Of a stretch of DNA of 51,863 nucleotides, positions 15,240-38,999 are shown piece by piece (position 1 is the first letter of the stretch; each line of letters begins with the position of its first letter). A model generated the notes under the pieces. It made no database searches, was not told the origin of the DNA, and saw nothing but the letters and a program-made list of their open reading frames with translations. Origin of the DNA: Rhizobiaceae bacterium (GTDB lineage Bacteria; Pseudomonadota; Alphaproteobacteria; Rhizobiales; Rhizobiaceae); contig JARGOF010000036.1 of assembly GCA_029212415.1 (NCBI GenBank), forward strand, positions 1 through 51,863, in the 5' to 3' direction. The position numbers were made by a program, and so were the translations under genes.

Positions 15240-15273
15240 TAATCCACTCTCAGAACCGAAAGGAACCAAACAG

Positions 15274-15558
15274 ATGAATACTCTAATCAAAGCAGGTGCC
15301 ATTTTTGCGCTGATGATGACAATGGCCACTTCGGCCCTTGCAATTGACTACACCAAGGGTGTCGTCAAGAAAGTTGACCTGAAACAAAAGAAGGTCACCG
15401 TTATTCATGAAGAGCTGATCAATCTCGACATGCCGGCGATGACCATGGTCTTCAGGACCGCTGATGAAACCATGCTGCAGATGTTGCAGGAAGGCCAGAA
15501 CATCGAGTTTGTAGCCGAACGCGTCAAAGGCAAGCTGACGATTGTTGAGTTAAAGTAA
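15274..15558 (+). CDS. CusF-like periplasmic copper-binding protein
   Basis: A 94-residue protein with a signal peptide to about residue 23, then a small OB-type barrel. The metal site reads H45...M53...M56...M58 (HEELINLDMPAMTM). Spacings of +8, +11 and +13 from the histidine equal those of CusF H36, W44, M47 and M49, so the cation-pi tryptophan is replaced by M53. It should bind Cu(I) or Ag(I) and pass it to an exporter or to the oxidase. GAAAGGAA precedes the ATG. It is the last gene before a hairpin at 15571-15594. Confidence 0.88.
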   Translation: MNTLIKAGAIFALMMTMATSALAIDYTKGVVKKVDLKQKKVTVIHEELINLDMPAMTMVFRTADETMLQMLQEGQNIEFVAERVKGKLTIVELK

Positions 15559-17678: not shown

Positions 17679-18074
17679 TGAACTTCCTTCCTGAAAACGC
17701 AAGGCCCCTTAAAAAGGGCTTCACGCCGTCCCGATGCGGGTTGCCACCTGACACACGGGATCGCATGCATGGTGGTTCAAAATCGGACGCTGGTCGCCCA
17801 ACGTCTGATATGAACCGGGACATGCAGAACATATCATCATTTGAAGGCCGCGATACCAGGTTCCTGTCTTTGTTTTTTAAAGGAACACCTTCAGCGATCC
17901 ACAGAGCCCGCCAGATGGTCTGGCCTGGAAAGATTGCCAGCGTGTCGCAGCGATGACCTGAACGCACGCCGACGATATTGCCTGAAACACCCCGGAGGGA
18001 TAAGATGTTGCCGGAAACCGGGTCTCAGGTGGGAATGCCGGTTGAAACGAATATCCTCATGGGAGTGCGTTGCA
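17679..18074. other. 396-base gap without a supported gene
   Basis: This holds the leader and promoter of the small basic protein gene on the minus strand (with a short hairpin at 17701-17721) and the upstream region of the MAPEG gene on the plus strand. The longer open frames crossing it overlap the small gene out of frame and lack ribosome-binding sites or familiar features. I see nothing else definite. Confidence 0.6.
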
Positions 18075-20394: not shown

Positions 20395-20414
20395 AACAGA
20401 ATGTTCGGTCTGTT
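20395..20414. promoter_or_regulatory. Inverted repeat in TetR-atuA intergenic region, likely operator
   Basis: AACAGA (20395-20400) and TCTGTT (20409-20414) are a perfect 6-base inverted repeat with an 8-base centre. A TTGACA hexamer lies upstream at 20367-20372, so transcription towards the AtuA gene would start near this dyad. This supports a TetR operator and a translation start downstream of it rather than at the ATG of 20401. Confidence 0.5.
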
Positions 20415-20442
20415 ATTTACCGTTCTGGTGCGGGAGAACATA

Positions 20443-23849: not shown

Positions 23850-23859
23850 GAGTGCAATG

Positions 23860-24666
23860 ATGAGCAGACTTCCCGAGACCGGCGCCCTCGACCTTGAACT
23901 GGAGGACGGCTGGCTGACCATCTGGTTCAATCAGCCGGAAATCCGCAACCCGCTGACCAACGAGCGGGTCAATGATCTTTTTGCCGTGTGCAAGGCCATC
24001 CACAATCGCCGCGATATCCGCGGTGTCACCTTTCGCGGCCAGGGCGGTATCTTCTGCGCCGGCGGTGACCTGAAAGCATTCAGGACGGCTTTTCACGGCA
24101 GCGCCACCCGCGAGGATGTGGTCAAACTCAGCCTTTCGGGCGCTGCATTGTTTGATGTGATCAATGCATTGCCGCAGGTAACCATCATGGCCATTGAAGG
24201 GGCGGCCATGGCGGGCGGTTTCGGGCTGGCCTGCGTCGGCGATCTGGTGATCGCGGATGAAGACGCACGGTTTTGCCTGAGCGAGACGATGATCGGCCTG
24301 ACACCGGCGCAGATTTCCGCCTTTGTGCTACAAAGAATGGGGCCCCGGAAGGGACGCCGAGTGATGTTGCTTGCCTCCACCATGAAAGGTGCAGAAGCGG
24401 TTGAAGCCGGGCTTGTGGATATTCTGGCGGACGGACCGCAAGCCATGGACAGCGAGATTGACCGCATCAAGGCACAGGTGATGCGCTGCGCCCCCGGCGC
24501 CGTGGCAGCCACCAAGAACCTGATTCTGGCACTGCCCAATCTGACCCGCGAAGAGCAGAAACAGATGGCAGCCGAGACCTTCGCTGAATCCATGATGTCG
24601 GATGAAGGACGCGAAGGCATTGCCAGTTTTTTTGAAAAACGCAAACCCAATTGGGCGGAGGACTGA
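23860..24666 (+). CDS. Enoyl-CoA hydratase/isomerase family protein
   Basis: A 268-residue crotonase-fold enzyme. The oxyanion-hole segments are FCAGGDLKAF and EGAAMAGGFGLACVGDLVIA, and CLSETMIGLTPAQIS holds the usual acidic position. It probably hydrates the carboxylated product of the neighbouring carboxylase, as LiuC or AtuE do. Two ATGs are adjacent; I chose the second (23860) because AGGAG then has a seven-base gap, while the first at 23857 is too close. The following carboxylase alpha gene starts five bases after the stop. Confidence 0.9.
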   Translation: MSRLPETGALDLELEDGWLTIWFNQPEIRNPLTNERVNDLFAVCKAIHNRRDIRGVTFRGQGGIFCAGGDLKAFRTAFHGSATREDVVKLSLSGAALFDVINALPQVTIMAIEGAAMAGGFGLACVGDLVIADEDARFCLSETMIGLTPAQISAFVLQRMGPRKGRRVMLLASTMKGAEAVEAGLVDILADGPQAMDSEIDRIKAQVMRCAPGAVAATKNLILALPNLTREEQKQMAAETFAESMMSDEGREGIASFFEKRKPNWAED

Positions 24667-24671
24667 GGACA

Positions 24672-26663
24672 ATGGCTTTTGACTCGATCCTTGTCGCCAA
24701 TCGCGGCGAAATTGCCTGTCGGATCATCCGGACCGCGCACGATCTGGGGCTGCGGACCATCGCGGTCTATTCCGAGGTGGATGCAAATGCCCCCCATGTG
24801 GCGCTTGCCGATGAGGCCGTGCTGATCGGTCCGGGACCGGCCGCTGACAGCTATTTGAACATTGAGCGGGTGCTTGATGCCGCAAAGGCAAGTGGCGCTG
24901 GCGCCATCCATCCCGGCTACGGTTTCCTGTCGGAAAATGAGCTGTTTGCCGATGCGGTGGATCACGCCGGACTGGTGTTTATCGGCCCGCCTGCCAGCGC
25001 CATCCGGCAGATGGGCAACAAGGCCGAGGCCAAACGGCTGATGGGTGCTGCCAACGTGCCCTGCGTACCGGGCTTTGAAGTCGGCGATCTTGACGACGCC
25101 GCCGTGATCAGAGCCTCTGATGAACTCGGCTTTCCGGTGATGGTCAAGGCAGCGGCCGGTGGCGGTGGTCGCGGCATGCGCCTGGCGCAGGGCGAAAGCG
25201 AACTTGCCGCTGCCCTGTCGATGGCACGTTCGGAAGCACTCAATGCATTTGGTTCCAGCGAACTGATCATCGAAAAGGCCCTGGAGCGGGCCCGCCATGT
25301 CGAAGTGCAGATCTTTGCCGACAATGATGGCCATTGCATTCACCTGGGCGAACGGGACTGTTCAGTGCAGCGCCGACACCAGAAGGTCATCGAGGAAGCA
25401 CCCTGCCTGGCGATGAACCCGGATTTGAGCGAGCGCATGGGCAAAGCCGCCGTCGCTGCGGCCATGGCGGTGGATTATCGCGGTGCCGGTACGGTGGAAT
25501 TCATGCTGGACACGTCCAGTGCGTTTTATTTTCTGGAGATGAATACAAGGCTGCAGGTCGAGCATCCGGTGACCGAAATGGTCACCGGGCTTGATCTTGT
25601 CGCCATGCAGATTGCGGTTGCCCAGGGTGAGCCGCTGGCTTTGGCGCAGCAGGATGTGCGCATCCGTGGACATGCTATTGAAGCTCGGCTCTACGCAGAG
25701 GACCCGGCCCGTGACTTCCTTCCGGGAACGGGCCCTATTGCATTGTGGCGACCGGCATCCGGCAAGGGCATTCGCATTGATTGCGGCATCAAAACCGGGT
25801 TGGACGTGTCGCCCTACTACGACCCTTTGCTCGCCAAGATCATAGCCTGGGGAGAAACGCGGGAGATTGCCCGCAACCGACTGGTCATGGCCATCCGCGA
25901 TAGCGTGCTGCTGGGCCCGGTCACAAACAGTGCATTTCTGGCCGATATCATCGCAATGGAGGATTTCACACAATGTGAGGCCACAACGGCCTTCCTTGGC
26001 GACAATTATCCAGACGGTGTCCCGGCGACGGTTCCGGGCAGCCTGGAGGTTGCCCTGGCCGCCGCCTTGAGTTTGCGGGCAGAGCAGAATGACGCCTTTG
26101 CGAAGGCCCCTTGTGTTTCACCATTGCTGCTTGGCTGGTCGAGTGCCGCGCTTTTACCCACGCCGGTTCATCTGCGTGATGCGCATGCGGAATATGAACT
26201 CACCGCCGGCTGCAAAGGCGATGTCTGGACCGTAGGCGTTGGCAAGGAGCAATTTGCAATCACGCTCGAAGAACGCGCCGACCAGGCATTTCGCGCCCGT
26301 GTCAATGATCGTACGATCGATGTTGTTGCGGTCATTTCCGACAAGGCCGATATCCTGCTGGCTGCCGGCGCAAGGCGCTTTGCCTTCCAGCGCATCTATG
26401 CCGGCGACCAGACGGAGGCTGCTGCAGCTGGTGGACGGATACTTGCACCAATGCCGGGTCTGGTCATCGAATTGCTGGTGCACGAGGACCAGAAGGTTGC
26501 CAAAGGCGAGGCTCTGGCGATTCTGGAAGCGATGAAAATGCAACATCGGATTGTCGCACCGGTGGACGGTATCGTGAAACAGATCGGCGTAAAACCGGGC
26601 GAACAGACTGGATCCGGCGACCTGATGTTCGAGATTGAAGACGCTGGAAAGGCGGAGAGTTGA
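24672..26663 (+). CDS. Acyl-CoA carboxylase alpha subunit (biotin carboxylase plus BCCP)
   Basis: A 663-residue biotin-dependent subunit. The biotin carboxylase part begins ILVANRGEIACRIIR and includes the ATP-grasp glycine loop AAAGGGGRGMRLAQ at about 160-175 and EMNTRLQVEHPVTE. A middle linker domain follows, and the C-terminal carrier domain has EAMKMQH with the biotinylated lysine at K622. It carboxylates its own biotin with ATP and bicarbonate and hands CO2 to the beta subunit. MAFDSIL is the right start: the family begins there. The stop abuts the next ATG with no gap. The alternative is a generic acyl-CoA carboxylase for other substrates. Confidence 0.93.
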   Translation: MAFDSILVANRGEIACRIIRTAHDLGLRTIAVYSEVDANAPHVALADEAVLIGPGPAADSYLNIERVLDAAKASGAGAIHPGYGFLSENELFADAVDHAGLVFIGPPASAIRQMGNKAEAKRLMGAANVPCVPGFEVGDLDDAAVIRASDELGFPVMVKAAAGGGGRGMRLAQGESELAAALSMARSEALNAFGSSELIIEKALERARHVEVQIFADNDGHCIHLGERDCSVQRRHQKVIEEAPCLAMNPDLSERMGKAAVAAAMAVDYRGAGTVEFMLDTSSAFYFLEMNTRLQVEHPVTEMVTGLDLVAMQIAVAQGEPLALAQQDVRIRGHAIEARLYAEDPARDFLPGTGPIALWRPASGKGIRIDCGIKTGLDVSPYYDPLLAKIIAWGETREIARNRLVMAIRDSVLLGPVTNSAFLADIIAMEDFTQCEATTAFLGDNYPDGVPATVPGSLEVALAAALSLRAEQNDAFAKAPCVSPLLLGWSSAALLPTPVHLRDAHAEYELTAGCKGDVWTVGVGKEQFAITLEERADQAFRARVNDRTIDVVAVISDKADILLAAGARRFAFQRIYAGDQTEAAAAGGRILAPMPGLVIELLVHEDQKVAKGEALAILEAMKMQHRIVAPVDGIVKQIGVKPGEQTGSGDLMFEIEDAGKAES

Positions 26664-27458
26664 ATGGAACAGGCAACAGATTTCCTGACGGAAAGCGATA
26701 CGCTGGCAGCGATCCTGCATGACCTTGATGATCCGGCATGGGACAGGCCGACGCAATTCAAGGGCTGGACCATCAACGACGTCCTCGTCCACCTGCACTT
26801 CTGGAATCGTGCTGCCGACCAGTCATTGACAGACCCGGACGGATTTCAGGACACCATGCGTTCAGCCATAGCGGCCAGTGCCGTTTCCGGCATGCGCGCG
26901 GTCGAAAATGCGGCCGTGAAAGAACGCAGCTCTGAATTGCTGGCTGTCTGGCAAGGCCTTTATCGCGATATGGGCAGACGGTGGGCACGGCTCGATCCCA
27001 AACAACGGGTCAAATGGGTCGGGCCAGAGATGTCCGTGCGCTCATCCATGACCGCGCGGCAGATGGAAACCTGGGCCCATGGCCATGAGGTCTTCGACCT
27101 GCTGGGCAAGAAGCGCCAGGAGACCGACCGCATTCGCAATATTGTGGTTCTCGGCGTCAATACCTTCGGCTGGACCTTCAAGGTGCATGGCATGGCAGCC
27201 CCCGAACAAATGCCCTTTCTCAGATTGTTCGCCCCATCGGGCGCGGTGTGGGATTATGGGAACCCTGACCAAGCCGATCACATTGAAGGACAGGCCGTGG
27301 ACTTTGCACAGGTCGTCACCCAGACCCGCCATGTGGCGGATACGCAATTGTCAGTCCGTGGACCCATTGCGACACAATGGATGACCCATGCGCAATGTTT
27401 TGCCGGCCCGCCGGAAACGCCACCTGCGCCCGGCACACGTTTCCGTCGCGAAACCTGA
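26664..27458 (+). CDS. TIGR03084-type metal-binding protein (DinB/maleylpyruvate isomerase fold)
   Basis: A 264-residue protein of the MDMPI/DinB-like helical-bundle superfamily. The N-terminal FKGWTINDVLVHLHFWNRAAD and the later TWAHGHEVFDLLG give the histidines (H43/H45 and the HGH pair) that bind a metal. The family is often found beside AtuA-type genes, where its function is unknown; a thiol-dependent isomerase or hydrolase has been guessed. The ATG follows the carboxylase stop directly, so it is the fifth gene of the operon. It converges on the Mo-hydroxylase operon with 12 bases between stops. Confidence 0.83.
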   Translation: MEQATDFLTESDTLAAILHDLDDPAWDRPTQFKGWTINDVLVHLHFWNRAADQSLTDPDGFQDTMRSAIAASAVSGMRAVENAAVKERSSELLAVWQGLYRDMGRRWARLDPKQRVKWVGPEMSVRSSMTARQMETWAHGHEVFDLLGKKRQETDRIRNIVVLGVNTFGWTFKVHGMAAPEQMPFLRLFAPSGAVWDYGNPDQADHIEGQAVDFAQVVTQTRHVADTQLSVRGPIATQWMTHAQCFAGPPETPPAPGTRFRRET

Positions 27459-27470: not shown

Positions 27471-27926
27471 TCAACTTGAGAGCGCCAAAATGGCCTTGCG
27501 CAGACCTGTATAGCCACTGCATCGGCACAGATTGCCGGCCAGAACGGTCTCCAGCTCCTGCCGTTGCAGCTTCTCTCCCACTGGTGCCCGCTCCAGCAAA
27601 GTCACCAGCGACACCAGCAGCCCCGGCGCGCAATAGCCGCATTGGATGGCGCCATTTTCTCGAAGGCGGTCAATAATCGCGTCTGCGCGTCGGCCCAATC
27701 CCTCGGCGGTAACCACGTCCGTGCCATCCATCTTGGCGGCGATCAGCAGGCAGGCATTGGCCGACTTGCCGTCAACCAGAATCGTGCAGGCACCGCAGCG
27801 CCCGATGGCGCACGATGTCTTGACACTTTCCTGGCCACATTGTTCCGCCAGGATGCTGGTCGCCTTGTCAAAAGGATTGACCACCCGGTCTTGCGGCTCA
27901 CCATTGAGCGTAAAGGAAATTCTCAT
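27471..27926 (-). CDS. [2Fe-2S] subunit of a xanthine-dehydrogenase-family hydroxylase
   Basis: A 151-residue iron-sulfur protein carrying two clusters. The plant-ferredoxin-type cluster ligands are in SCAIGRCGAC plus a further Cys in SANACL, and the second cluster has QCGYC and NLCRCSGYTGL. All eight cysteines of the family are present. It passes electrons from the Mo centre to FAD. The ATG at 27926 forms an ATGA overlap with the stop of the large subunit. It is the last gene of the nine-gene operon. The related CoxS, QorS and NdhS proteins have the same form. Confidence 0.92.
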   Translation of the reverse strand: MRISFTLNGEPQDRVVNPFDKATSILAEQCGQESVKTSCAIGRCGACTILVDGKSANACLLIAAKMDGTDVVTAEGLGRRADAIIDRLRENGAIQCGYCAPGLLVSLVTLLERAPVGEKLQRQELETVLAGNLCRCSGYTGLRKAILALSS

Positions 27927-30139
27927 GGGGTGCGTCCTTGCCTGGCGAGCGCGTCCAGAACCCATTCGGGTCGTACCGGCAAATGTGTTGGAGCAGCGTC
28001 CAATGCGCTGGCGACGGCATTGGCAATGGCCGGTGCGGCGGCATTCAGCCCGATTTCACCACCGCCACGGATACCCACCGGATCATCAGGCGCAAGCCAG
28101 GTCACCGGATGAACATTGACATCCGGCACATCTGCAATGGTCGGGATGAAATAGCTGTCGAAATTGCTCGCCATGACCGTACCCTCCTCATAGGGCTGGT
28201 GCTCGGTGAGACAGAATCCCAGAGCCTGGGCGCCGGCACCGGTCATCTGACCTTGAAAGGCCACAGGGCTGATCGGTGGACCGCAGGCGGGCAGCAGGTC
28301 AAGGCCGGTGCAGGCAACCTGTCCGGTCCAGCGGTCGATCCGCACGCGTGCCCGTGCCGCACAAGTGGTAAACAGCGTGTGCACATTGGCGCCCGCTTGC
28401 ATGGTTTCTATGCCCGGTATGCCGATCTGTGTGACGATTTCGCCAGCACTGGCTGCAAGATCACTCAAGGACAGATCGGGTTTGTTTTGCGGCGCCATTC
28501 GTTGATAAAAACCACCCGGACCAAGCCGCAGAGCATCCATTGGCACTTGTAGAATTTCGGCAGCCCCAACGTAGAGTTTCTCCAGGAATGGCATCTTGCC
28601 AGCACGGATCAGCCGCAGTGCGATCTGCGTGCCGCGTGATGCGGAGGTCGGTCCGCTGTCCGCGCCCGCATCGGTAGATCCGGTTGCGCAGCCAATGTCG
28701 GCTTCATCGAGATCGAACGTTGCAAGAAGGGTATTTCTGACCGTGGTCTCCAGCCCCTGCCCCATTTCAACAAGGGAACTTTGAAACATAACCTGACCAT
28801 CAAGGGTCAGAGCCAACACGCCGCTGGCGCCATTGGGGCCACCTCCGGCAAAGCCTTCACCCTTGCGCACAAGCGCATAGCCGGTGCCACTGAGATAACG
28901 CTGCGATGGCGTCTCGTCGCGCCAGGCCGGTAGCGAAGACAAGGCGTCGGCGACCTTTGGCAGTTCCGGCTGGGGAATGATGGCCTGACCGAGTGGTCCC
29001 GGATCATTTGCACCGGCCAGATTGATCCGCCGGAATGTCAGCGGATCATGGCCGGCCTTGCGCGCCAGAATATCGACGGCAAGTTCGATGGCCGTCAGGG
29101 TCTGTAGCGCGCCGAAACCACGAAAGGCACCACCGACGCCATTGTTGGTATAGGCAAGACGCCCCCTCAGCTTGACGGATCTGAAAGCATAGGCGCTCTG
29201 GATGCACTCCATTCCGGTATCCAGCACCTCCGGGCCAAAGCTTGCATAGGCGCCATTATCAACCAGCACATCAGCCGCAAGCGCCAGCAGGCGGCCCGCC
29301 CGGTCGCAGCCGATCTTGAGCGCGATCTCGAAGGGATGGCGTGTCGTGGCAAATGCCATGCTTTGCGGACGGTCCAGAATCAGCCGAACCGGGCGCCTCG
29401 CAGTCCAGGCCAGCAGCGCGAGCACGGGCTGGATATGAATTTCCTCCTTGCCGCCATAGCTGCCGCCGATGGGTGAACCGATGACGCGGACGTCTCTTTC
29501 AGGCAGCCCCAGCATGCTGGCGATCAGACTGCGCGTGTAAAACGGGCTGTGGGTTGCTGCACGCAGTTCGATGCCGGTCGGCGAAGGGATGCAGATGCCA
29601 CCTTCCAGTTCCATCGCAGCCGGAACCTGACGCGGGGTCGTGAGTCGATGGTCGATGACATGAGCGCATTCCTCAAAGTCTGCATCGACTTTGCCCCTTG
29701 AATAGATGAAGCTGGAGCAAAGATTGCCTGAATCATGCAGTTTCGCTGCGCCCTCGTTCAGCGCATCCCCTGGCGCGCTCACAATCGGCAGAGGTTCCAG
29801 TTCAAATGCGATCAGGGCAATGGCTGCATTGGCAATTTCTTGTGTCTCGGCGGCAACGGCAGCCATCGGCTCGCCCTGAAAACGTACTTTTCCGCGCGCC
29901 AGTGGCGGACGGTCGAGAATGGCTGTCCCCATTACAAAGTCGGAAGGAACATCCGCAGCCGTTACAACAGCATGGACCCCGTTCAGCGACCGGGCAGCCG
30001 AGACATCGAGCCGCCGAATGGTGGCATGCGCCAGCGGGCTTGTCAGCAGCGCGCCATGCAGCGTGCCTACCGGTTGGCCTTCCGCCAGATAGCGAAAGGA
30101 GCCACGCAATTTTTCCTCCAATCCCGTCACCGCATTCAT
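27923..30139 (-). CDS. Molybdopterin-binding large subunit of a xanthine-dehydrogenase-family hydroxylase
   Basis: A 738-residue catalytic subunit. Motifs in order are GGSYGGKEEIHIQP (Mo-cofactor loop), GGAFRGFGALQ, SSLVEMGQG and, near the C-terminus, GGGEIGLNAA with the catalytic base at E695. GAFRGFG is normally followed by xPQ, here ALQ. It hydroxylates an aromatic N-heterocycle or aldehyde with water-derived oxygen. It overlaps both neighbours as ATGA (27923-27926 and 30136-30139), so the three subunits are made together. No XdhC-type maturation gene is in the window. The substrate is unknown; the deaminase and transporter nearby favour a purine- or pyrimidine-like ring over CO or an aldehyde. 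Confidence 0.92.
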   Translation of the reverse strand: MNAVTGLEEKLRGSFRYLAEGQPVGTLHGALLTSPLAHATIRRLDVSAARSLNGVHAVVTAADVPSDFVMGTAILDRPPLARGKVRFQGEPMAAVAAETQEIANAAIALIAFELEPLPIVSAPGDALNEGAAKLHDSGNLCSSFIYSRGKVDADFEECAHVIDHRLTTPRQVPAAMELEGGICIPSPTGIELRAATHSPFYTRSLIASMLGLPERDVRVIGSPIGGSYGGKEEIHIQPVLALLAWTARRPVRLILDRPQSMAFATTRHPFEIALKIGCDRAGRLLALAADVLVDNGAYASFGPEVLDTGMECIQSAYAFRSVKLRGRLAYTNNGVGGAFRGFGALQTLTAIELAVDILARKAGHDPLTFRRINLAGANDPGPLGQAIIPQPELPKVADALSSLPAWRDETPSQRYLSGTGYALVRKGEGFAGGGPNGASGVLALTLDGQVMFQSSLVEMGQGLETTVRNTLLATFDLDEADIGCATGSTDAGADSGPTSASRGTQIALRLIRAGKMPFLEKLYVGAAEILQVPMDALRLGPGGFYQRMAPQNKPDLSLSDLAASAGEIVTQIGIPGIETMQAGANVHTLFTTCAARARVRIDRWTGQVACTGLDLLPACGPPISPVAFQGQMTGAGAQALGFCLTEHQPYEEGTVMASNFDSYFIPTIADVPDVNVHPVTWLAPDDPVGIRGGGEIGLNAAAPAIANAVASALDAAPTHLPVRPEWVLDALARQGRTP

Positions 30140-30900
30140 GCCATGTCCCGTTGAGCAAGCTGTGCCAGATGACCACGCAGCAGATTGTGGGCGGCCGATT
30201 TCAAATAGGGTGCTGCATTGCCGGCAAACAGCGCATCGTCCAAAGGCCAGTTCATCGGCCAGGGCGTTTCAACAGTTGCCACCGGATGGCCCGCCAGACG
30301 AACCGCCAGCCTGGCGCTTTGCCGCCCCACACAACCAGCCACGACGACGCGGGAGGGACTGAAGGCCTGCCGGTGTCCCAGCTTCTCCACAAAAATCCGT
30401 TGTCCCTGCAACGCCGGAACGATGATCGAAATCAGCAGGTCTTCGGGCTGATCGGATACGGTCGGACCCAAAGACTGGGCGCGGCCATTGCCCGCAAAAC
30501 GAAGCTTTGCATCCACAGCGGCAAACAGCACTTCCAGATCGCCGGCACCCCAAAGCAGGTTACCGCCAAGGCTTGCCTGATTGCGCGTCGCTGTGGAACC
30601 GACATATCTGAGGAATTCAGCGAACCAGGGCAATTGCCGCGAAATAAGTGGATCAAGGCGCAAGCGTTCGAGCGGAGCGTTGGCGGCCAGGACCATTGAT
30701 CCACTATCCGCAAGGCAAACATCCGACCCCAAATCAAGCCCTGCTATGTCGATGATCGTTTGTTCCGGGCCTTTGACACCCCAGCCGAGTTGCGCTGCCG
30801 TCAATCCGCATCCATAGATGCCGGCCGGACCCAGAGAAGCCTTGATGCTGATGGCGTCTTCCACATCAGCTGGCCGCACATAGGTTGGTTGGGCATTCAT
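30136..30900 (-). CDS. FAD-binding subunit of the Mo hydroxylase (CoxM-like)
   Basis: A 254-residue subunit, shorter than the usual 280-300. TATRNQASLGGNLLWG matches the second FAD-binding motif of CoxM/XdhB proteins. The first motif, usually a GG(T/H)xL loop, here reads IYGCGLTAAQLGWG and is clearly divergent. The C-terminal CO-dehydrogenase-like domain appears compact. It would take electrons from the [2Fe-2S] subunit through FAD to an acceptor. It overlaps the deaminase stop upstream and the large subunit downstream, each as ATGA. FAD affinity may be altered; this is inferred from the motif only. Confidence 0.82.
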   Translation of the reverse strand: MNAQPTYVRPADVEDAISIKASLGPAGIYGCGLTAAQLGWGVKGPEQTIIDIAGLDLGSDVCLADSGSMVLAANAPLERLRLDPLISRQLPWFAEFLRYVGSTATRNQASLGGNLLWGAGDLEVLFAAVDAKLRFAGNGRAQSLGPTVSDQPEDLLISIIVPALQGQRIFVEKLGHRQAFSPSRVVVAGCVGRQSARLAVRLAGHPVATVETPWPMNWPLDDALFAGNAAPYLKSAAHNLLRGHLAQLAQRDMA

Positions 30901-31388
30901 TTTTCTGCCCAGAAACCTTCCTGCAGCGCAGCAGCTTCTTCCGCAAGCAACGGGCCAACCACCTCTATATCGCGCTGGCCGGCCGCAAAGACTGTGCGGC
31001 AGGGCAGATCAAGCGTCGGGTTCTCGTCATGATTGCCGGTCTGGATCTTGAGATCGTGTTCGCTCTGGCCAAAAACCACCCTGCCAATACCGGCCCAGTA
31101 AACCGCCCCGGCACACATGGCGCAGGGTTCAGCGGAGGTATACATCGTGCATCTGGCAAGAAAGTCCACGTCCCAACCCCTGCTGGCGCGCGAGGCCAGA
31201 ATGCGCTCGGCATGGGCGGTCATGTCGTGCCCCTCCGTCTCGTAAGCATTGCCCTGCTCCAAAAGAATCTCGCCATCTGGCCCGACCATGATGCAGCCGA
31301 ACGGGTGCTGACCCATGGCTCGGGCCGCTGCCGCCACGGCAAAAGCCATGCGCAGGTATTTTTCGTCTTGGGTCTCGGAGTGGTTCAT
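30897..31388 (-). CDS. Cytidine/guanine-deaminase-superfamily nucleobase deaminase
   Basis: A 163-residue zinc hydrolase. The catalytic set is HAE (H59, E61) and PCAMC (C89, C92), placing it in the CDA fold's TadA/GuaD branch. Gene context with a Mo hydroxylase and importer suggests free-base or heterocycle deamination rather than tRNA editing. I chose MNHSET at 31388; two earlier in-frame starts at 31403 and 31427 are possible. Its start lies four bases after the permease stop and its end overlaps the FAD subunit. Guanine, cytosine, adenine or a modified base could be the substrate. Confidence 0.85.
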   Translation of the reverse strand: MNHSETQDEKYLRMAFAVAAAARAMGQHPFGCIMVGPDGEILLEQGNAYETEGHDMTAHAERILASRASRGWDVDFLARCTMYTSAEPCAMCAGAVYWAGIGRVVFGQSEHDLKIQTGNHDENPTLDLPCRTVFAAGQRDIEVVGPLLAEEAAALQEGFWAEK

Positions 31389-31392
31389 TGCA

Positions 31393-32205
31393 CTACCTTT
31401 CATTCTTGGGAAGGGACCAGGGCGCAAAGCGCTTTTGCAGGAAGCCGACCGTGCGGAACAGCAGCATGCTCAAGATCACGAGGAAAACGAGCCCGGCAAA
31501 AGCCTGCGGGATTTTGAAAAAGGAGGTCGAAAACGAGATGAAGAAACCCAGCCCCTTGTCTGCGGCCACGAATTCGGCCACCACCGCGCCGATCACAGCA
31601 AGGGTTGTCGATATTTTCAGCGCGGAGAAAATATAGGGCAGCGCATAGGGAAGGCGAACCTGCATGACCTCGCGCCGCGTTCCCGCGCGCAGCGACCGTG
31701 ACAGTTCGATCAGTTCTTCGGGCGTTGCCAGCAGACCGGTGGTGGTCGAAACGACAATCGGGAAAAAGGTGATCAGAAAGGTGATCACGATACGCGGCAG
31801 ATCGCCCGCACCAAGGGTCACCACGATGATCGGCGCCACCGCGACAATCGGCGTCGATTGTATGATGATAAGCGCCGGGTAGAGGGTCCGTGCGAGAAAC
31901 CGGGATTTGGCCAGCCCGACGGCCAAGGGAATGCCGATGGCGATGGCCAGCAGATAGCCGATCAGCGCCACGCGCATGGTCGCCCATATATGCCCGGCCC
32001 AGGTCGATGCTGCGACAGCAAAGCCATCGGCAATGATCCGGCTGGGTGCGGGAAGCAGGAAGGACGGAATGGAAAAGACACGCGTCGAGATTTCCCAAAG
32101 ACCAATCAGCACCACGAATGCCAGCGCCGGGGTGAAGCGGTCGAGCAGACGCAGCACCTGCTGGCGCAGGCTCATTGTGGTCGTCCTGTCATAGAGATTG
32201 GTCAT
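31393..32205 (-). CDS. ABC transporter permease, SsuC/TauC/ThiX type
   Basis: A 270-residue inner-membrane permease with about six helices. The cytoplasmic coupling (EAA) loop is SLRAGTRREVMQVRLPYALPYIFSAL. A single permease with this length is typical of the sulfonate/nitrate/pyrimidine-precursor importers. MTNLYD at 32205 is preferred because GGTGG precedes it and the ATPase stop is seven bases away; MSLRQQ at 32175 is a good alternative. It serves with the ATPase and the NMT1/THI5-type binding protein encoded upstream in the same operon. Confidence 0.9.
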   Translation of the reverse strand: MTNLYDRTTTMSLRQQVLRLLDRFTPALAFVVLIGLWEISTRVFSIPSFLLPAPSRIIADGFAVAASTWAGHIWATMRVALIGYLLAIAIGIPLAVGLAKSRFLARTLYPALIIIQSTPIVAVAPIIVVTLGAGDLPRIVITFLITFFPIVVSTTTGLLATPEELIELSRSLRAGTRREVMQVRLPYALPYIFSALKISTTLAVIGAVVAEFVAADKGLGFFISFSTSFFKIPQAFAGLVFLVILSMLLFRTVGFLQKRFAPWSLPKNER

Positions 32206-32212
32206 GATCCAC

Positions 32213-32995
32213 CTATGCCGCGACGGGTTTGGAGAAGAGCCTGTTGCGAATGTGGTTCGCCAGACGGGTGAACTCCGGATCGCCCAAGGTTTCCAGTGTC
32301 CGCGGCCGTTCAAACGGAACCTTTATTTCCTCGCGAATGCAGCCCGGTCGCTCGCTCATGACCAGAATCCGGTCGGAAAGAAGCAGCGCGTCGGGAATGG
32401 AATGAGTGATGAAAAGCACTGTTTTCGGCCGGTCGCGCCAGATGCGCAGCAGTTCGAAGCTCATCTCGTCACGCGTCAGGGCGTCAAGCGCCGAGAACGG
32501 CTCATCCATCAAGAGGATATCAGGATCAAGAAGCAGCGCCCGGGCAATGCCGACCCGTTGCTGCATGCCGCCGGATAGCTCATCGATACGCTTGTCGGCA
32601 AAATCGGCCAGCCCAACCAGGTCCAGCAACTCGAGGGCACGGGCCCTGTCCTTGCTCTCAACCCGACCGTATTTGTGGCGCATTGGAAAGGTCACATTGT
32701 TGATGACGGAATACCACGGCAAAAGCGTCGGCTTTTGAAAGACAATGCCGATCTCGTCCCGAGGCTCCTTGACCGGATATCCAAAGATCGACACCGAACC
32801 GCCTGTGGGGGCAATCAGGCCTGCCACGAGACGCAGAAGGGTTGATTTTCCGCAGCCGGAGGGGCCAAGCACCGACACGAATTCATGGCGGGCAACCGAG
32901 AATGTGAGATCGGACAGGGCATGAATCGGCGCACCATCATTGCCGGTGAAAACCTGTTCCACCGCGTCGAAGGCAATGGCTGGGGGCGTGTTCAT
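32213..32995 (-). CDS. ABC transporter ATP-binding protein, SsuB/TauB/ThiZ type
   Basis: A 260-residue nucleotide-binding subunit. Walker A is GPSGCGKST, the signature LSGGMQQRVGIARAL, Walker B LLMDEPFSALD, and the H-loop FITHSI. FQKPTLLPW at the Q-loop is typical of the taurine/nitrate/pyrimidine branch. It powers import through the permease encoded just downstream. GGAAGGAAT precedes the ATG. A 59-base gap separates it from the binding-protein gene, the longest gap in this otherwise overlapping operon. Confidence 0.93.
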   Translation of the reverse strand: MNTPPAIAFDAVEQVFTGNDGAPIHALSDLTFSVARHEFVSVLGPSGCGKSTLLRLVAGLIAPTGGSVSIFGYPVKEPRDEIGIVFQKPTLLPWYSVINNVTFPMRHKYGRVESKDRARALELLDLVGLADFADKRIDELSGGMQQRVGIARALLLDPDILLMDEPFSALDALTRDEMSFELLRIWRDRPKTVLFITHSIPDALLLSDRILVMSERPGCIREEIKVPFERPRTLETLGDPEFTRLANHIRNRLFSKPVAA

Positions 32996-33054
32996 GTTAT
33001 TCCTTCCGGGGGCAAAACCGGGCGTCGGATGACGCCCGGCTGGAGACCTTCTGA

Positions 33055-34041
33055 TCAAAAGTCCGCTGCGACCGCTGTGGTTGGATCCAGCTTGTCCAGA
33101 GGGTACCCTTGCGCCTTGGCAACCCAGCCCCAGGATGCGTTCAGCAGTTCGGGTTTGAAGACACCCATGCCGTCAGCCTCGGTGATTTCATTGACCATCA
33201 ACGGAATGGACGCTTCCCACTGTTCCTGTGCAACCTGCTCGTCGACTTCGGGAACCATGGCCTTCAAGGCAGCAGCAGCACCCGCCGGATCATCAATCGC
33301 GGCAAGTGTTGCCTTCTGGTAGGCAGCGACCAGACGCTTGAGCACATCTGGACGCTCAGAGATCATCCGGTCGGAAGTGAACAGAGAAAGCCCATAGCCC
33401 TCATAGCCATATTCAGACCAGGGCACCGCCTTGAAGGTTTTGCCGACTTCCTTGAGCGGCGCCATATAGGCCGGAGCGACGGTCAACCAGTTGATCGTGC
33501 CATCGACCTGACCGGTTGCCAGCATCGGCGCCAGCGCACCGGGATCGACTTTCAAGACTTCGACACTTGCCGGATCAATGCCATTGGCTTGCAGCACCAG
33601 GGGCCACGATACATTGGAAGACGAGAATGTTGCGGTGGCCAGCTTTTTACCAGCCACATCCTTGAGTGTTTCGATGCCCGAATCGCTGGTCGTGAAAATT
33701 GCATCCGGTTGCTTGGTGTAGATCGGCATCAAGGCCTTGACCGGCGCATCTTCCGCTGCCACGGCTTGCAGCAACGCGGAAAGACCGCCTGTTCCAACGT
33801 CAGCAGCGCCGGTGGCAAGTTTGGTGACAACGTCCGAAGATCCACGCCCAATGGCAACGGTCACGTCAAGTCCGGCATCGGCAAAGATGCCTTTCTCCAC
33901 GCCATAATAGACGGCTGCCTTGTCGCCGGCCGGAAGCCAGTCGATCATGAAGGTGACCGCATCAGCGGCACGGGCAACGCCTGTGCTCAGGGCCACGGCA
34001 AATGCGGAAATCATCAGTTTTTTCAAGGTGGTTTGTTTCAT
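33055..34041 (-). CDS. Periplasmic ABC substrate-binding protein, NMT1/THI5-like
   Basis: A 328-residue binding protein with a signal peptide ending GVARAAD. The mature start VTFMIDWLPAGDKAAVYYGVEKGIFADAGLDV is the NMT1/THI5-like signature, shared by thiamine-pyrimidine (HMP), riboflavin, nitrate and sulfonate binders. Three ATGs stand in a row; I chose the third (34041), which has the right spacing from GGAG. Its start nearly touches the hydrolase stop (34044). Ligand residues cannot be read reliably. The family bias towards heterocycles agrees with the catabolic enzymes in the operon. Confidence 0.9.
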   Translation of the reverse strand: MKQTTLKKLMISAFAVALSTGVARAADAVTFMIDWLPAGDKAAVYYGVEKGIFADAGLDVTVAIGRGSSDVVTKLATGAADVGTGGLSALLQAVAAEDAPVKALMPIYTKQPDAIFTTSDSGIETLKDVAGKKLATATFSSSNVSWPLVLQANGIDPASVEVLKVDPGALAPMLATGQVDGTINWLTVAPAYMAPLKEVGKTFKAVPWSEYGYEGYGLSLFTSDRMISERPDVLKRLVAAYQKATLAAIDDPAGAAAALKAMVPEVDEQVAQEQWEASIPLMVNEITEADGMGVFKPELLNASWGWVAKAQGYPLDKLDPTTAVAADF

Positions 34042-34043
34042 CA

Positions 34044-34901
34044 TCATACTCCAGTTTTTGATTGTGTGTTTTCGGATTTGCCCTGAGCAGACCGCTCCGA
34101 TTGGTCGCAGTCGGTTTCCCCCAGCAGAAAGGGGATCAGGGAATTGGCAAGCAGATCGGGCGCACTGAGCTGCGGCGTATGGCCGGTCGGCAGGGATACG
34201 ACCAATGCCCCCGGAACCAGTTCCTGCATGCGCCGTTGCAGGAGCAGATCGATTGAACGGTCCTTTGTCGCCTCGACATACAATCGCGGCAGGCTGCCGA
34301 ACCGCTCCGGCGTGAAGGTGGCATTGATCGCCCGGCCACCCTCGGGCTGGGGCGTCAGGCGTTCAGCGGCACTTGTTGCCAGTTCCGTCGGGCAATCGCT
34401 GAACAGGATGGCTTTGGCCGCAGCAAGCGGAACGCTGCTTTGCCGACCGTCAGCTGACCATTGCAGTTCGCCGGTGATCCCGTATGAGATGGCCGCCGTT
34501 TCGGCGACACTCTTTTGAACCGTCGCAAAGGCCACACCACTCGGCAACATCATCCCGGCAATGAAGGCAATGCGTGACACTCTTTCACGAAAGTTTTCGG
34601 CGACTGCGGTGGCGACGATGCCACCAGCCGAGTGCCCCACCAGCGAGACCTGTCCGGGCAATTTTGCCAGCAGCCTGCCGATATGGTCCAGATAGGTCTG
34701 AAGCGAAATCTCTGCATCGGTGGCAGGCCCGTGGCCATTGCCCGGCAGATCCACCGCAACACAGACAATGCCGGCTGCGCGCAAATAGGGCACAAGCGCG
34801 TTCCACGCCCAGCTTCCCTGCCAGGCACCATGAATCAGGATCACCGTATCGGGACCTTCAGAGATTTTCGGGTGAGGAGCAGCAGCCACAGGAGGGGTCA
34901 T
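34044..34901 (-). CDS. Alpha/beta-hydrolase
   Basis: A 285-residue hydrolase. ILIHGAWQGSWAWN forms the oxyanion hole, GHSAGG holds the nucleophilic serine, and GHTPQLS near the C-terminus the histidine. HGAWQGSW and the lid region resemble the plant methylesterase/hydroxynitrile-lyase and pyrethroid-hydrolase group. No signal peptide is clear, so it is cytoplasmic. It should cleave an ester, lactone or C-C bond in the pathway of this operon. The start overlaps the oxygenase stop as ATGA and the stop adjoins the binding-protein start. Confidence 0.88.
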   Translation of the reverse strand: MTPPVAAAPHPKISEGPDTVILIHGAWQGSWAWNALVPYLRAAGIVCVAVDLPGNGHGPATDAEISLQTYLDHIGRLLAKLPGQVSLVGHSAGGIVATAVAENFRERVSRIAFIAGMMLPSGVAFATVQKSVAETAAISYGITGELQWSADGRQSSVPLAAAKAILFSDCPTELATSAAERLTPQPEGGRAINATFTPERFGSLPRLYVEATKDRSIDLLLQRRMQELVPGALVVSLPTGHTPQLSAPDLLANSLIPFLLGETDCDQSERSAQGKSENTQSKTGV

Positions 34902-35881
34902 GCGACATAGGTTTTCTTGTACATGGACTGCAGATGCTCCTCGACCGTGATCGGCGGGTATTTCGGTAGCCCGCCCGGCGCGACGCATGTCTCAATACAA
35001 TCGACGACGTAGTCCGGATTGCCGACATAGAAGAACGGGATGGAATAGCGCTCGCGTCCGGAGGCATTGACCACACGGTGCAGCGTTGAACGGTAGGTAT
35101 CGTTGGTCCACCGGGCGATCATGTCGCCAAGATTGACAACAAATGCACCCGGAACCGGATTGGCATGGATCCAGCTTTGATTCTCATTGTCAAAGACCTG
35201 AAGCCCGCCGACATCGTCCTGCATGAGAATGGTCAGCCCGCCGAAATCGGTATGGGCACCAGCGCCCTTTTCACCCTCACCCGCGTCAGGGCGCTGCGGC
35301 GGATAATGCAACAGGCGCAGCGTTGCCATCGGGTCCTTGCAAAAGGGTTTGAAGTGATCTTCCGGCAGATCCAGCGACAGCGCCATTCCCTGCATCAACT
35401 GTTCGCCAAGGTCCTGCAGCGCCGCGAAATAGGCCTTCATCGTCGGGCGAAAGCCGGCACGCCCCCGGGGCCAGACATTTGGTCCGCGATTGAAACGGCC
35501 GGCAACGACGCGTGGATCACTCTCGTCCAGTTCCAGCCCGATATAATAGCCTTCCTTGCGGTCCGGCGGTGCACCGGCTTCCAGGGTCTGGCCGCCCAGT
35601 ACCTCATAGCCACGATTGCACTTGGAGACTGACTTCTCCACCCGCATCTTTTCTTCAAGCGTCTGATCAAAGAAACCGCGCGCCTCTTCAAAGGCTGCAT
35701 CCATCAGCCCCTGGGGGACACCGTGCCCGGAACAGTAAAAGAAGCCCTTGTCGAGGCAACTTGCCCGCAGGGCTTTGCCGACAGCGGCCCGGTCACCCGC
35801 ATCGTTCGAAGACAGGCCCGATACATCGATTATCGGCAATGTTGCCGTCTGAACTGTCTTTGCATCAAGCGCTGTTTTCAT
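34898..35881 (-). CDS. 2-oxoglutarate/Fe(II)-dependent oxygenase, isopenicillin-N-synthase family
   Basis: A 327-residue non-haem iron enzyme. The N-terminal DIOX_N part begins LPIIDVSGLSS and includes GFFYCSGHGVP. The iron triad is H210, D212 and H268, and the R-x-S pair that binds 2-oxoglutarate is R278 and S280 (RYSIPFF). It would hydroxylate a small substrate with O2. Fungal thymine 7-hydroxylase belongs to this superfamily, which fits a pyrimidine-like substrate but does not prove it. GGGG precedes the ATG at 35881. It is first in the nine-gene operon, 153 bases downstream of the LysR gene. Confidence 0.9.
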   Translation of the reverse strand: MKTALDAKTVQTATLPIIDVSGLSSNDAGDRAAVGKALRASCLDKGFFYCSGHGVPQGLMDAAFEEARGFFDQTLEEKMRVEKSVSKCNRGYEVLGGQTLEAGAPPDRKEGYYIGLELDESDPRVVAGRFNRGPNVWPRGRAGFRPTMKAYFAALQDLGEQLMQGMALSLDLPEDHFKPFCKDPMATLRLLHYPPQRPDAGEGEKGAGAHTDFGGLTILMQDDVGGLQVFDNENQSWIHANPVPGAFVVNLGDMIARWTNDTYRSTLHRVVNASGRERYSIPFFYVGNPDYVVDCIETCVAPGGLPKYPPITVEEHLQSMYKKTYVA

Positions 35882-36034
35882 GGCGATCCCCAAACGTGTT
35901 GTGCAGACGCTATGGGGACTTTCGCGCTCTTAAAAGAACATTTTTTCGCTCATGATGATGCCGAAACAGCAGCGCGGCATCTATCGTGTCTATAGGACTG
36001 CGATTCAAGGAAGGAATTTTGCGGCAGAGGATTT

Positions 36035-36946
36035 TCAGCCCGCACCCTCGATCATCTGAATCTCTTCAACCAATATCTTGAGGAACAGATCCACCGCGGC
36101 AGGGACAGAACGCCCGGCGCGCACATAGATCCCCAGATCACTCCAGACAGGGCCTTTTGCATCGAGGGGAACATGGACCAGTTCACCCATGGCAATGGAA
36201 CGATCCAATCCGACCAGCGTCTGGAAGCCGATGGCCGAACCCTGCATGGCAAGCTGACGCATCAGGTCGATGGAGTTCGTACGCATGGCCGGGTCGATGG
36301 TGCGTTTGGATTGGGTGATCAGCGGATCCAGCAATTGCGAAATTGACAAATCGTTGCTTGCGTAAACCATTGGATAGTCGGCACAATCACTGAAGGTGAC
36401 ACATTCGCGCTGCGCCAGCGGATGATCCGGCGCCATGATCGCACCGAGTTTGAATTTGGCAACAAAAATCTGCCGCAATTCCGGTGACCGCGGCAGATTG
36501 AACGCGATGCCGATATCCGTCAGTCCGTTCTGCACCTGCTCGGGAATGGCTGCAGATCCCATGGAATCAACCGAATAGGTAATCCGGGGCGCCCGTTCCT
36601 TCAGTTCGCGCAGAACGATCGGCAGCAGCGATGTGCATACCCCTTCCACCGCGCCAATTGTCAGATGGCCGATCCTGGCTCCCTTCAGGGCGTCTATCTC
36701 GGCTCTTGCCCGGTCCAGGTCCTGCAAGACAACAATCACGTGATGGGCCAGAATCTCACCGGCGGAACTCAGGCTGACACCGGTCGATGAGCGATCAAAG
36801 AGCGGCGTGCCGACGAGATCTTCGAGTTTGAGAATTTGTCGGTTGACAGCGGAAGACGCGACGTTGAGACGTCGCGCAGCCTCGCGTATCGATCCAGCCC
36901 TGCGCACCGCGTCGAAATAGTGAATCGCACTTGAATGAATCCGCAT
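36035..36946 (-). CDS. LysR-family transcriptional regulator
   Basis: A 303-residue regulator. The N-terminal helix-turn-helix has SIREAARRLNVASSAVNRQILKLED, with PLFDR after it, and the rest is a periplasmic-binding-like effector domain. GGGGGCC precedes the ATG. It lies directly upstream of the nine-gene catabolic operon on the same strand and is divergent from the VOC gene, so it may control either or both. LysR proteins typically autoregulate from the divergent gap, here 36947-37182. No clear T-N11-A site could be singled out. Confidence 0.9.
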   Translation of the reverse strand: MRIHSSAIHYFDAVRRAGSIREAARRLNVASSAVNRQILKLEDLVGTPLFDRSSTGVSLSSAGEILAHHVIVVLQDLDRARAEIDALKGARIGHLTIGAVEGVCTSLLPIVLRELKERAPRITYSVDSMGSAAIPEQVQNGLTDIGIAFNLPRSPELRQIFVAKFKLGAIMAPDHPLAQRECVTFSDCADYPMVYASNDLSISQLLDPLITQSKRTIDPAMRTNSIDLMRQLAMQGSAIGFQTLVGLDRSIAMGELVHVPLDAKGPVWSDLGIYVRAGRSVPAAVDLFLKILVEEIQMIEGAG

Positions 36947-37877: not shown

Positions 37878-38999
37878 TCAGCTGTCGACACCGCCCCAGA
37901 TTTCTTCAGCCGTGCGGACCACCAGTTCAAGTTTTTTGCGCTGGTCGTCATAGGTCAGTGAATTGCCCTCTTCGGTTGAAGCAAAGCCACATTGCGGCGC
38001 AATGCCGAGCTGGTCCATATCCGCGAATTTGGCGGCATTTTCAAACTGGCGCTTGAGATCATCAACGGTCTCGAGCGTACCCACCTTGGTGGTGATGAAG
38101 CCGGGCAAGACCCGCTGTTTGCCCTTGGCCAGCAGGCTCAGAGGCTCAAGACCACCGGCGCGGTCCGTATCATATTCCATGAAGAAGACATCAACGCCGG
38201 TCTTGTTGAATACGGCGTCGGCGGCCGCATCATAGGCCCCTTCTGCTGCATGGGTTGAACGGAAATTGCCACGACACATGTGCATGCCGATGATCATGTC
38301 ATCGGGGCGGTCCTTGATGGCCTCATTCATCATCCATGCATAACGGTCAATCAGCCAATCGGGATCGCGCCCGTCGGCCTTTTGTGCGGCCCGGTGTTTG
38401 GGATCGCACAGATAGGCGAAGAAAATATCGTCCATCTGGAGATAGCGGCACCCGGCCTTGTAGAAAGCCGCAACGGCCTTTTTGTAAGTGGCGGCGATGT
38501 CAGCCAACAGGATGTCCTGGTCGCTGTATTCCTTGGGATGAATGTCTGCAGAGGCCGTCCTGAAATGGCAGCAGCTCGGTCCGGGAATGGAAATCTTCGG
38601 CACCACATTGGTGACGGAAGCGACAAATTTGAAATGATCCAGCATCGGGTGGTCGTCCGGAAAATCCAGTTTCGACGTGATGGTGGGATAGATCGGACGC
38701 AGCTTCACCCCGGCAAATTGCACGCCTTCATCGCGTTCTTCCAGATCCAGTCCGGTCAGGCCACCCATGAAATCATAGTGCCAGAAAGAGCGCCTGTATT
38801 CGCCGTCGGTAACGGCAAGAAGGCCTACGTCTTCCTGCATGGCAACGGCATCGCGGATTGCCTGATCTTCCACGGCCTTCAGTTCATCGGCGGAGATGGT
38901 TTTGTCTTCAAAGTGCTTTTTGCGGGCATCCTTGACGCTTTCGGGGCGCAGGAGGCTGCCCACATGGTCAGCGCGGAAGGGTGGTTTGGCCTTTGCCAT
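37878..38999 (-). CDS. MetE C-terminal-domain family methyltransferase (YxjG-like)
   Basis: A 373-residue enzyme of the short cobalamin-independent methionine-synthase family. It begins PFRADHVGSLLRPESV, as in YxjG-type proteins, and differs clearly from the MesD-like protein at 3010. Zinc ligands are visible as His and Cys in GMHMCRG and Cys in PQCGFAS; DGEYRR matches the DGE motif of the barrel. It would move a methyl group onto a thiol such as homocysteine. It is the last gene behind the TRAP transporter genes, 64 bases from DctM, suggesting that the imported compound is methylated or sulfur-bearing; this is inference. Confidence 0.87.
   Translation of the reverse strand: MAKAKPPFRADHVGSLLRPESVKDARKKHFEDKTISADELKAVEDQAIRDAVAMQEDVGLLAVTDGEYRRSFWHYDFMGGLTGLDLEERDEGVQFAGVKLRPIYPTITSKLDFPDDHPMLDHFKFVASVTNVVPKISIPGPSCCHFRTASADIHPKEYSDQDILLADIAATYKKAVAAFYKAGCRYLQMDDIFFAYLCDPKHRAAQKADGRDPDWLIDRYAWMMNEAIKDRPDDMIIGMHMCRGNFRSTHAAEGAYDAAADAVFNKTGVDVFFMEYDTDRAGGLEPLSLLAKGKQRVLPGFITTKVGTLETVDDLKRQFENAAKFADMDQLGIAPQCGFASTEEGNSLTYDDQRKKLELVVRTAEEIWGGVDS

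Follow-up and report, generated by a model that had tools for sequence, protein, structure and literature searches.

The DNA examined here, 51,863 nt from a Rhizobiaceae bacterium (GCA_029212415.1, contig JARGOF010000036.1, positions 1-51,863; "the window" denotes this whole stretch), carries nine closely coupled genes on its minus strand, running from 35881 to 27471. In transcript order they encode a 2-oxoglutarate (2OG)-Fe(II) oxygenase (OX), an alpha/beta hydrolase (HYD), a solute-binding protein (SBP), an ABC transporter ATPase and permease, a deaminase (DEA), and the FAD, molybdenum (Mo; MO) and 2Fe-2S (FES) subunits of a hydroxylase; their place, strand and families, first given in an annotation made from the sequence alone (the first-pass annotation), are borne out by Pfam and NCBIfam. 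That annotation had read the genes as an N-heterocycle catabolic system, a reading that is well supported and that is narrowed to purines by the gene context in relatives and by the residues of purine type that the Mo subunit carries. We hypothesize, with a probability of about 0.6, that the genes form a LysR-controlled peripheral purine-degradation operon, which would import a purine base outside the range of the canonical enzymes. The features of the locus are the following.

36035 to 36946, minus strand: LysR-type regulator, the likely operon regulator (Pfam HTH_1 and LysR_substrate)
35957 to 35981, no strand assigned: operator-like palindrome GATGCC-N13-GGCATC, 75 nt 5' of the OX ATG
34898 to 35881, minus strand: OX, isopenicillin N synthase (IPNS)-like 2OG-Fe(II) oxygenase (Pfam DIOX_N and 2OG-FeII_Oxy)
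34044 to 34901, minus strand: HYD, methylesterase/hydroxynitrile-lyase-like alpha/beta hydrolase (Pfam Abhydrolase_6; PDB relatives)
33055 to 34047, minus strand: SBP, NMT1/THI5-like solute-binding protein (Pfam NMT1, E 8e-38)
32996 to 33054, minus strand: predicted intercistronic hairpin with an 11-bp stem, in the SBP-ATPase gap
32213 to 32995, minus strand: ABC transporter ATPase (Pfam ABC_tran)
31393 to 32205, minus strand: ABC transporter permease (Pfam BPD_transp_1)
30897 to 31388, minus strand: DEA, Msd/GuaD-like nucleobase deaminase of the cytidine deaminase (CDA) fold (Pfam dCMP_cyt_deam_1)
30136 to 30900, minus strand: FAD subunit of the Mo hydroxylase (Pfam FAD_binding_5)
27923 to 30139, minus strand: MO, Mo subunit of a purine-type hydroxylase (Pfam MoCoBD_1/2 with Ald_Xan_dh_C)
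27471 to 27926, minus strand: FES, 2Fe-2S subunit of the Mo hydroxylase (Pfam Fer2_2)

The LysR gene lies 153 nt 5' of OX on the same strand, and belongs with the nine-gene operon. Within the operon the junctions are overlaps or gaps below 10 nt save for one between SBP and ATPase, just as first described: in transcript order they measure -4 (OX-HYD), -4 (HYD-SBP), 59 (SBP-ATPase), 7, 4, -4, -4 and -4 nt. The 59-nt gap holds a strong, GC-rich predicted hairpin (-25.4 kcal/mol, z -3.07, equally good in 1 of 200 shuffles), and hairpins are also predicted in the SBP-ATPase gaps of relatives L111 and L118 (67 and 68 nt); in L101, L083 and L096 the gap is just 4-13 nt. Such hairpins are compatible with a single transcript that would give surplus binding protein.

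The first-pass annotation knew of no named pathway with this gene set. No assigned pathway was found in openly licensed PMC papers either, but the set had already been linked to purine oxidation: in the available text of PMC7373994 (2020), to which our statements on that paper are limited, the xanthine riboswitch (NMT1 motif, RF03054) is tied to purine oxidation genes, and its regulon holds pcbC-type dioxygenases, NMT1 proteins distinct from the thiamin ones, 8-hydroxyguanine/guanine-type amidohydrolases and, rarely, tadA-type deaminases. The dioxygenases are expected there to act on purines, with their exact functions not established. The riboswitch binds xanthine and urate, and the RNA rejects xanthine and urate singly methylated at N1, N3 or N7, as well as N9-methylated urate. 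Among openly licensed PMC papers we found no later answer on dioxygenase function, and no characterised bacterial purine 2OG enzyme.

Protein families and structure models

The 2OG-Fe(II) oxygenase superfamily is typified by an HxD...H iron triad and an RxS motif that binds 2OG. The corresponding residues of OX (H210, D212, H268, R278 and S280) are invariant in 34 aligned sequences, and by these motifs and its predicted fold OX is assigned to the IPNS-like members of the superfamily. Its AlphaFold model (pLDDT 89.9) is closest, by Foldseek, to 6jyv, 9ovh, SpoC, TraH and thymine hydroxylase T7H; the resemblance to T7H is one of fold, at 29-31% identity.

This resemblance and the THI5-like binding protein together suggest pyrimidine catabolism, with the thiamin pyrimidine hydroxymethylpyrimidine (HMP) or thymine as the substrate, a reading that we regard as highly improbable. 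SBP does match the N-formyl-HMP-binding protein (E 4e-9) and THI5 (E 2e-8), but these are weak matches to several families among which ThiY is not the best, and its best match in the PDB is another protein (4nmy, E 4e-14). The genes found in context are purine genes, and PMC7373994 sets the riboswitch-associated NMT1 proteins apart from those for thiamin; on these two grounds thiamin/HMP catabolism was dropped as the principal interpretation.

DEA carries both the HAE and the PCAMC motif that the first-pass annotation had pointed out, which correspond to an HAE plus PCxxC zinc site. The top ten Foldseek chains for its model (pLDDT 94.0) all belong to Msd (Msmeg3575), a mycobacterial enzyme that provides the nearest solved structures, at 36-38% identity, and that ranks ahead of tRNA and guanosine deaminases; the PDB titles of Msd name complexes with ammeline, 5-azacytosine and 5-azauracil. 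With its zinc site and this nearest structural match, DEA is predicted to be a nucleobase deaminase of the GuaD/Msd type. A second Msd/GuaD-like deaminase, 57% identical to DEA, is encoded elsewhere in the same genome (contig C57, 38069-38530; L053, 10061-10606), where it adjoins a glutathione S-transferase (GST)-like gene, named by eye, and has no OX homologue in the surrounding 20 kb.

No subunit of the Mo hydroxylase reaches the curated NCBIfam cut-offs of the xanthine dehydrogenase equivalogs (PucCDE, XdhABC): MO scores best against pucD (480.1 bits, cut-off 783.65), FES against pucE (128.3 bits, cut-off 254.3), and the FAD subunit attains 57.7 bits with its best model (cut-off 306.05). 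In the bovine enzyme the acid and arginine that grip the purine and the catalytic glutamate are E802, R880 and E1261. Aligned to XdhB of its own genome, MO retains all three, in the motifs GGKE, AFRGFG and GGGE, and eight related Mo subunits likewise keep the acid of GGK[E/D], the arginine of AFRGFG and the glutamate of GxGE. Judged by these residues, and despite the equivalog scores below cut-off, MO is classed as a purine-type hydroxylase.

Conservation of the gene set

A homologue of OX at E<=1e-60 is present in 52 of the 297 family genomes sampled, the host included; close copies, at 66-86% identity, occur in eleven other family genomes, after which identity drops to 47%. The loci compared below are a non-random sample of 95, made up of the best 80 of 491 confirmed relatives, four plasmid loci and 11 other genome loci. 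Three of them (L049, L050 and L051, duplicates of L061, L062 and L064) are dropped from counts given over 92 loci, and are kept in the counts of purine enzymes and riboswitch motifs. In the counts over 92 loci, presence of a gene means a tblastn match at E<=1e-10 over half the query; some gene names were assigned by eye to clusters.

The comparison shows the operon to be more than a chance grouping. OX, HYD, the NMT1-type ABC transporter and the Msd/GuaD-like deaminase recur together across Alpha-, Beta- and Gammaproteobacteria: among the 92 loci, all with OX, matches were obtained for HYD in 66, ATPase in 62, permease in 51, SBP in 48, DEA in 37, LysR in 29 and FES in 16. HYD follows OX immediately on its 3' side in 62 loci, and the six genes of this core are colinear in 15 loci from the three classes (eight from Pseudomonas/Stutzerimonas, three from other Gammaproteobacteria, three from Betaproteobacteria and one from the alphaproteobacterium Rhodoplanes), which are not independent, since eight are Pseudomonas/Stutzerimonas. 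Around 20 distant OX paralogues (38-46% identical), picked from the matches listed for the family genomes and used as a control, HYD was found in none, DEA and SBP in one each, permease in two, LysR in four, and Mo and 2Fe-2S subunits in one each; generic ABC ATPases, present in 19, are uninformative. The sole control locus with DEA and SBP, L157, carries two xanthine-riboswitch motifs. OX homologues are often multiple: 81 sets hold 98 OX-cluster genes, and OX2, a second type, occurs in 20.

Variation within the set is greatest in the Mo genes, with MO matched in 14 of 92 loci and the FAD subunit in seven, and Bradyrhizobium-type OX-HYD loci (L072, L074, L075, L077, L078) have a Mo subtype that is distantly related (25-26% identical) and lacks the acidic purine residue. 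Both observations would suit a mixed nitrogen-scavenging operon whose transporter, oxygenase and Mo enzyme share a transcript and serve separate substrates. Recurrence of the whole nine-gene order in betaproteobacterial Comamonas and Ideonella, at 28-69% identity, argues against such a mixture, which we find quite unlikely. LysR and all nine genes stand in the same order in Ideonella oryzae (L101) and Comamonas testosteroni (L111) by tblastn, and also in C. suwonensis (L118) by gene clusters, the FAD subunit there falling below the tblastn cut.

At two loci with OX homologues (L110, 3278-4105; L056, 5027-5878) a creatininase-family gene, annotated in L056 and named by eye in L110, is found with a FAD-binding oxidoreductase. 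Some members of the creatininase family open cyclic amides, and these genes possibly hint at ring opening.

Purine genes and riboswitches beside OX in relatives

Several relatives have genes of purine metabolism beside OX. Allantoinase PuuE occurs in at least 8 and OHCU decarboxylase in at least 5 of the 95 loci, both lower bounds because five loci (L055, L126, L130, L131, L137) gave no called genes; PuuE was confirmed by NCBIfam in all three loci tested (L092, L096 and L103). L092 also has allantoicase, L096 an 8-oxoguanine deaminase equivalog (662.7 bits, cut-off 532), and the Pseudomonas putida plasmid pPp1290 (L054) HpxO and an NCS2 nucleobase symporter; BMP-type transporter genes, named by eye, are found beside OX as well. 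In Sphingobium (L103) a single cluster unites three OX-cluster genes, a Rieske-like protein (by eye), PuuE, OHCU decarboxylase and HIU hydrolase.

The Rfam model of the xanthine riboswitch matched in 6 of the 19 relatives' loci scanned (L050, L051, L070, L086, L080 and L113; by batch of loci, 4/7, 2/7 and 0/5). Among 96 sets, 18 loci (16 distinct) carry its core motif, at 28 sites in all, and base-shuffled DNA, searched five times, never does; the gene called next after a site is the second 2OG oxygenase in 16 cases and SBP in seven, and the motif loci with homologous genes include L043, L044, L062, L064, L070 and L086. The purine genes and the xanthine riboswitch near OX in these relatives argue that the operon's substrate is very probably a purine.

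Beside OX in L050 lies an amidohydrolase of the PRK12393 type (657.5 bits, cut-off 543), a type that is sister to 8-oxoguanine deaminase and to which isoxanthopterin deaminase is also related. The substrate might thus be a pterin or a deazapurine, in which case DEA and such an amidohydrolase would deaminate a 2-amino-4-oxo-pteridine, with the pyrazine ring as the site of hydroxylation by the Mo enzyme. The neighbouring genes, however, are those for urate, allantoin and purine transport, and the riboswitch is specific for xanthine and urate, so that we consider a pterin or deazapurine substrate unlikely. L050 also contains, near its purine locus, a sul1 RNA (RF03058) at 17739-17795.

LysR and the palindrome upstream of OX

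A palindrome with a shorter spacer, GATGCC-N5-GGCATC, is located 5' of OX in 10 relatives, three of which (L082, L083, L084) are near-identical Pseudomonas/Stutzerimonas loci. It has 16 matches in 1.77 Mb, 11 upstream of OX and five within genes, against a base-shuffled mean of 1.0 per set, for a motif that had been picked by eye from LysR-OX leaders beforehand; the window's GATGCC-N13-GGCATC has one match against 0.02 expected, its 13-nt spacer being likewise chosen after the site was seen. MAFFT gave no useful alignment of whole LysR-OX leaders. A LysR relative on the same strand lies directly upstream of OX in 16 of 92 loci. Among the palindrome relatives, LysR is directly upstream in 5 of 10 by tblastn, as it is in the window; in L114 and L115 the LysR relative is further away, and in L082, L083 and L084 there is none in the stretch examined. 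Because LysR adjoins OX in just part of these loci, we only infer that the palindrome and the regulator are linked. The 16 distinct riboswitch loci and the 11 palindrome loci do not overlap.

The canonical purine route in the host genome

GuaD, XdhABC, a Urate_ox_N urate oxidase, HIU hydrolase, OHCU decarboxylase and PuuE are encoded together on another contig of the host genome, C11. Curated cut-offs are passed by GuaD (573.8 bits, cut-off 375.4), XdhA (684.7, 467), XdhB (1350.3, 849.5), HIU hydrolase (134.4, 87.45) and PuuE (541.9, 424.6), and by XdhC; the urate oxidase and OHCU decarboxylase calls rest on Pfam domains. Transposase-like genes, named by eye, lie at about 14100-15300 of this locus (L144), between its xanthine dehydrogenase half and its HIU hydrolase/PuuE half. 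As the genome has a canonical route from guanine through xanthine and urate to allantoate, the operon in the window looks peripheral, for a purine beyond the reach of that route.

Alternatively, the operon may bypass xanthine dehydrogenase for ordinary purines, OX making urate from hypoxanthine or xanthine and DEA making xanthine from guanine, with no modified purine involved. Fungal XanA is a model for a 2OG oxygenase that acts in such a bypass, and the Sphingobium cluster, where OX-cluster genes and the enzymes of urate and allantoin breakdown stand together, would agree with it. The proposal comes close to that of PMC7373994, where purines are the expected substrates of the dioxygenases and xanthine and urate the ligands of the riboswitch; the Rieske-type HpxDE offers another parallel. 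However, of the 12 OX-carrying genomes tested, 11 have canonical XdhA above its cut-off and the remaining one, G262, which is fragmented and 83% complete, gives a partial match, HIU hydrolase being found in all 12; the operon's own Mo hydroxylase would already do the job; and a bypass leaves the hydrolase and the two or three OX paralogues per locus without a role. We therefore think a bypass rather doubtful.

Proposed function and comparison with known systems

For the peripheral operon that we favour, the following course may be envisaged. The NMT1-type ABC transporter would import a substituted purine base, of which the 2OG-Fe(II) oxygenase would hydroxylate the substituent or a ring carbon; the alpha/beta hydrolase might process the oxidised product, the Msd/GuaD-like deaminase strip the exocyclic amine, and the three-subunit Mo hydroxylase oxidise C2 or C8. 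The resulting xanthine or urate would then join the canonical urate-allantoin route on C11. In the first-pass annotation the steps would run, tentatively, from hydroxylation by O2 through deamination and water-derived oxidation to hydrolysis. The imported purine is most likely substituted (N-alkylated, oxidised or otherwise modified), since OX homologues are often multiple per locus, since some relatives adjoin N-demethylase-like Rieske systems, and since the riboswitch answers only to unmethylated products. That the 2OG enzyme dealkylates an N-alkylated or otherwise modified purine would be our guess.

Carried further, the operon could provide a Rieske-independent route for purines that are N-methylated or alkylated in another way, such as 7-methylguanine and other modified bases from RNA turnover, with IPNS-like 2OG oxygenases as regiospecific N-dealkylases, a possibility that we put forward tentatively. 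The hydrolase would finish the oxidised substituent, and DEA and the Mo enzyme would deliver xanthine or urate; the riboswitch version of the system would sense only the unmethylated end products. Regiospecific N-dealkylases would explain why two or three OX paralogues occur per locus.

A number of observations weigh against the peripheral operon as we picture it. The xanthine riboswitch is missing from the window, where Rfam gives no hit at E<=1 between 20000 and 45000 and the core motif is absent, and was not found genome-wide, though the control gave no signal there either. Genomes can hold redundant enzymes, so the canonical pathway is no proof of a different substrate. Four other genomes of the same genus are listed without a close OX copy (best 38-40%), hence the operon is accessory; OX can do without HYD, which goes unmatched in 26 of 92 loci; and the FAD subunit is poorly conserved. 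Concerning demethylation, the Rieske-less oxygenase of a Klebsiella plasmid locus, whose OX homologue is 43% identical, is nearer in the PDB to SxtDIOX/SxtT (E 3e-24) than to NdmB (1.5e-14) or NdmA (1e-8). Formaldehyde detoxification genes were set aside as a sign of demethylation: among the 95 loci a formaldehyde dehydrogenase like that of the Sphingobium cluster lies beside OX only in that cluster itself, which lends demethylation weak support.

The operon shares its 2OG dioxygenase, NMT1 transporter and tadA-like deaminase (rare there) with the riboswitch loci of PMC7373994, as well as the purine amidohydrolases found among its relatives, and differs from them in having a LysR gene and a palindrome in place of the riboswitch, and an additional alpha/beta hydrolase and Mo hydroxylase. 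In the main text of that paper LysR, "molybd", "dehydrogenase" and "demethyl" do not occur, and "hydrolase", which appears five times, never refers to an alpha/beta hydrolase. Apparently new, relative to that text, are a nine-gene form tied to LysR and equipped with a Mo hydroxylase, the usual pairing of the oxygenase with the hydrolase, and the OX palindrome.

With caffeine C-8 oxidation in Pseudomonas CBB1 (CdhABC, TmuM), as far as it is set out in the available text of PMC4408171, the operon has in common a trimeric purine-type Mo hydroxylase in a purine cluster; the nine genes hold no TmuM-type FAD monooxygenase, allantoinase-like gene or decarboxylase gene, and instead have a 2OG oxygenase. 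In the same limited sense, the Klebsiella plasmid locus, with its Rieske-less oxygenase, a reductase bearing an extra Rieske domain and a GST, matches the NdmCDE architecture described for NdmABCDE (PMC4408171, PMC8055839), whereas the operon in the window lacks a Rieske oxygenase (Pfam finds no Rieske domain in its nine genes) and its oxygenase is of the 2OG-Fe(II) family. On plasmid pPp1290 (L054, 6775-8530) the NdmD-like functions are split into Rieske, reductase and 2Fe-2S genes, which are fused on the Klebsiella plasmid. Oxygenase-based purine oxidation is shared with the Klebsiella hpx system, known here by way of PMC7373994, and HpxO stands beside OX on pPp1290; HpxDE, however, is of the Rieske type and OX of the 2OG type.

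According to the available text of PMC8055839 (2021), no enzymes besides Ndm have been shown to N-demethylate methylxanthines in bacteria. The operon joins an importer, an oxygenase with its usual hydrolase partner, a deaminase and a Mo hydroxylase in one unit, alongside a canonical route from guanine to allantoate; should its substrates be methylated or damaged bases, it would represent a general bacterial outlet for modified nucleobases.

Neighbouring genes in the window

A convergent plus-strand operon (20401-27458) ends 12 nt from the purine operon and encodes an AtuA-family protein, a carboxyltransferase, an enoyl-CoA hydratase-like protein, a biotin carboxylase and a TIGR03084 protein (306.9 bits, cut-off 248), a set of the acyclic-terpene-type acyl-CoA carboxylase kind. 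On account of this adjoining carboxylase operon, a separate plus-strand set of AtuA, carboxylase and TIGR03084 genes, cytokinin (isopentenyladenine) degradation was considered, and was set aside as a less favoured reading; in the nearest relative, L042, a biotin carboxylase 55% identical to that of the window likewise lies on the far side of LysR. Also encoded in the window, at 3010-4029 on the plus strand and 37878-38999 on the minus strand, are two short "methionine synthase" proteins that resemble MetE-C and fall into different subfamilies; they score 538.7 bits (cut-off 392) and 454.5 bits (cut-off 313).

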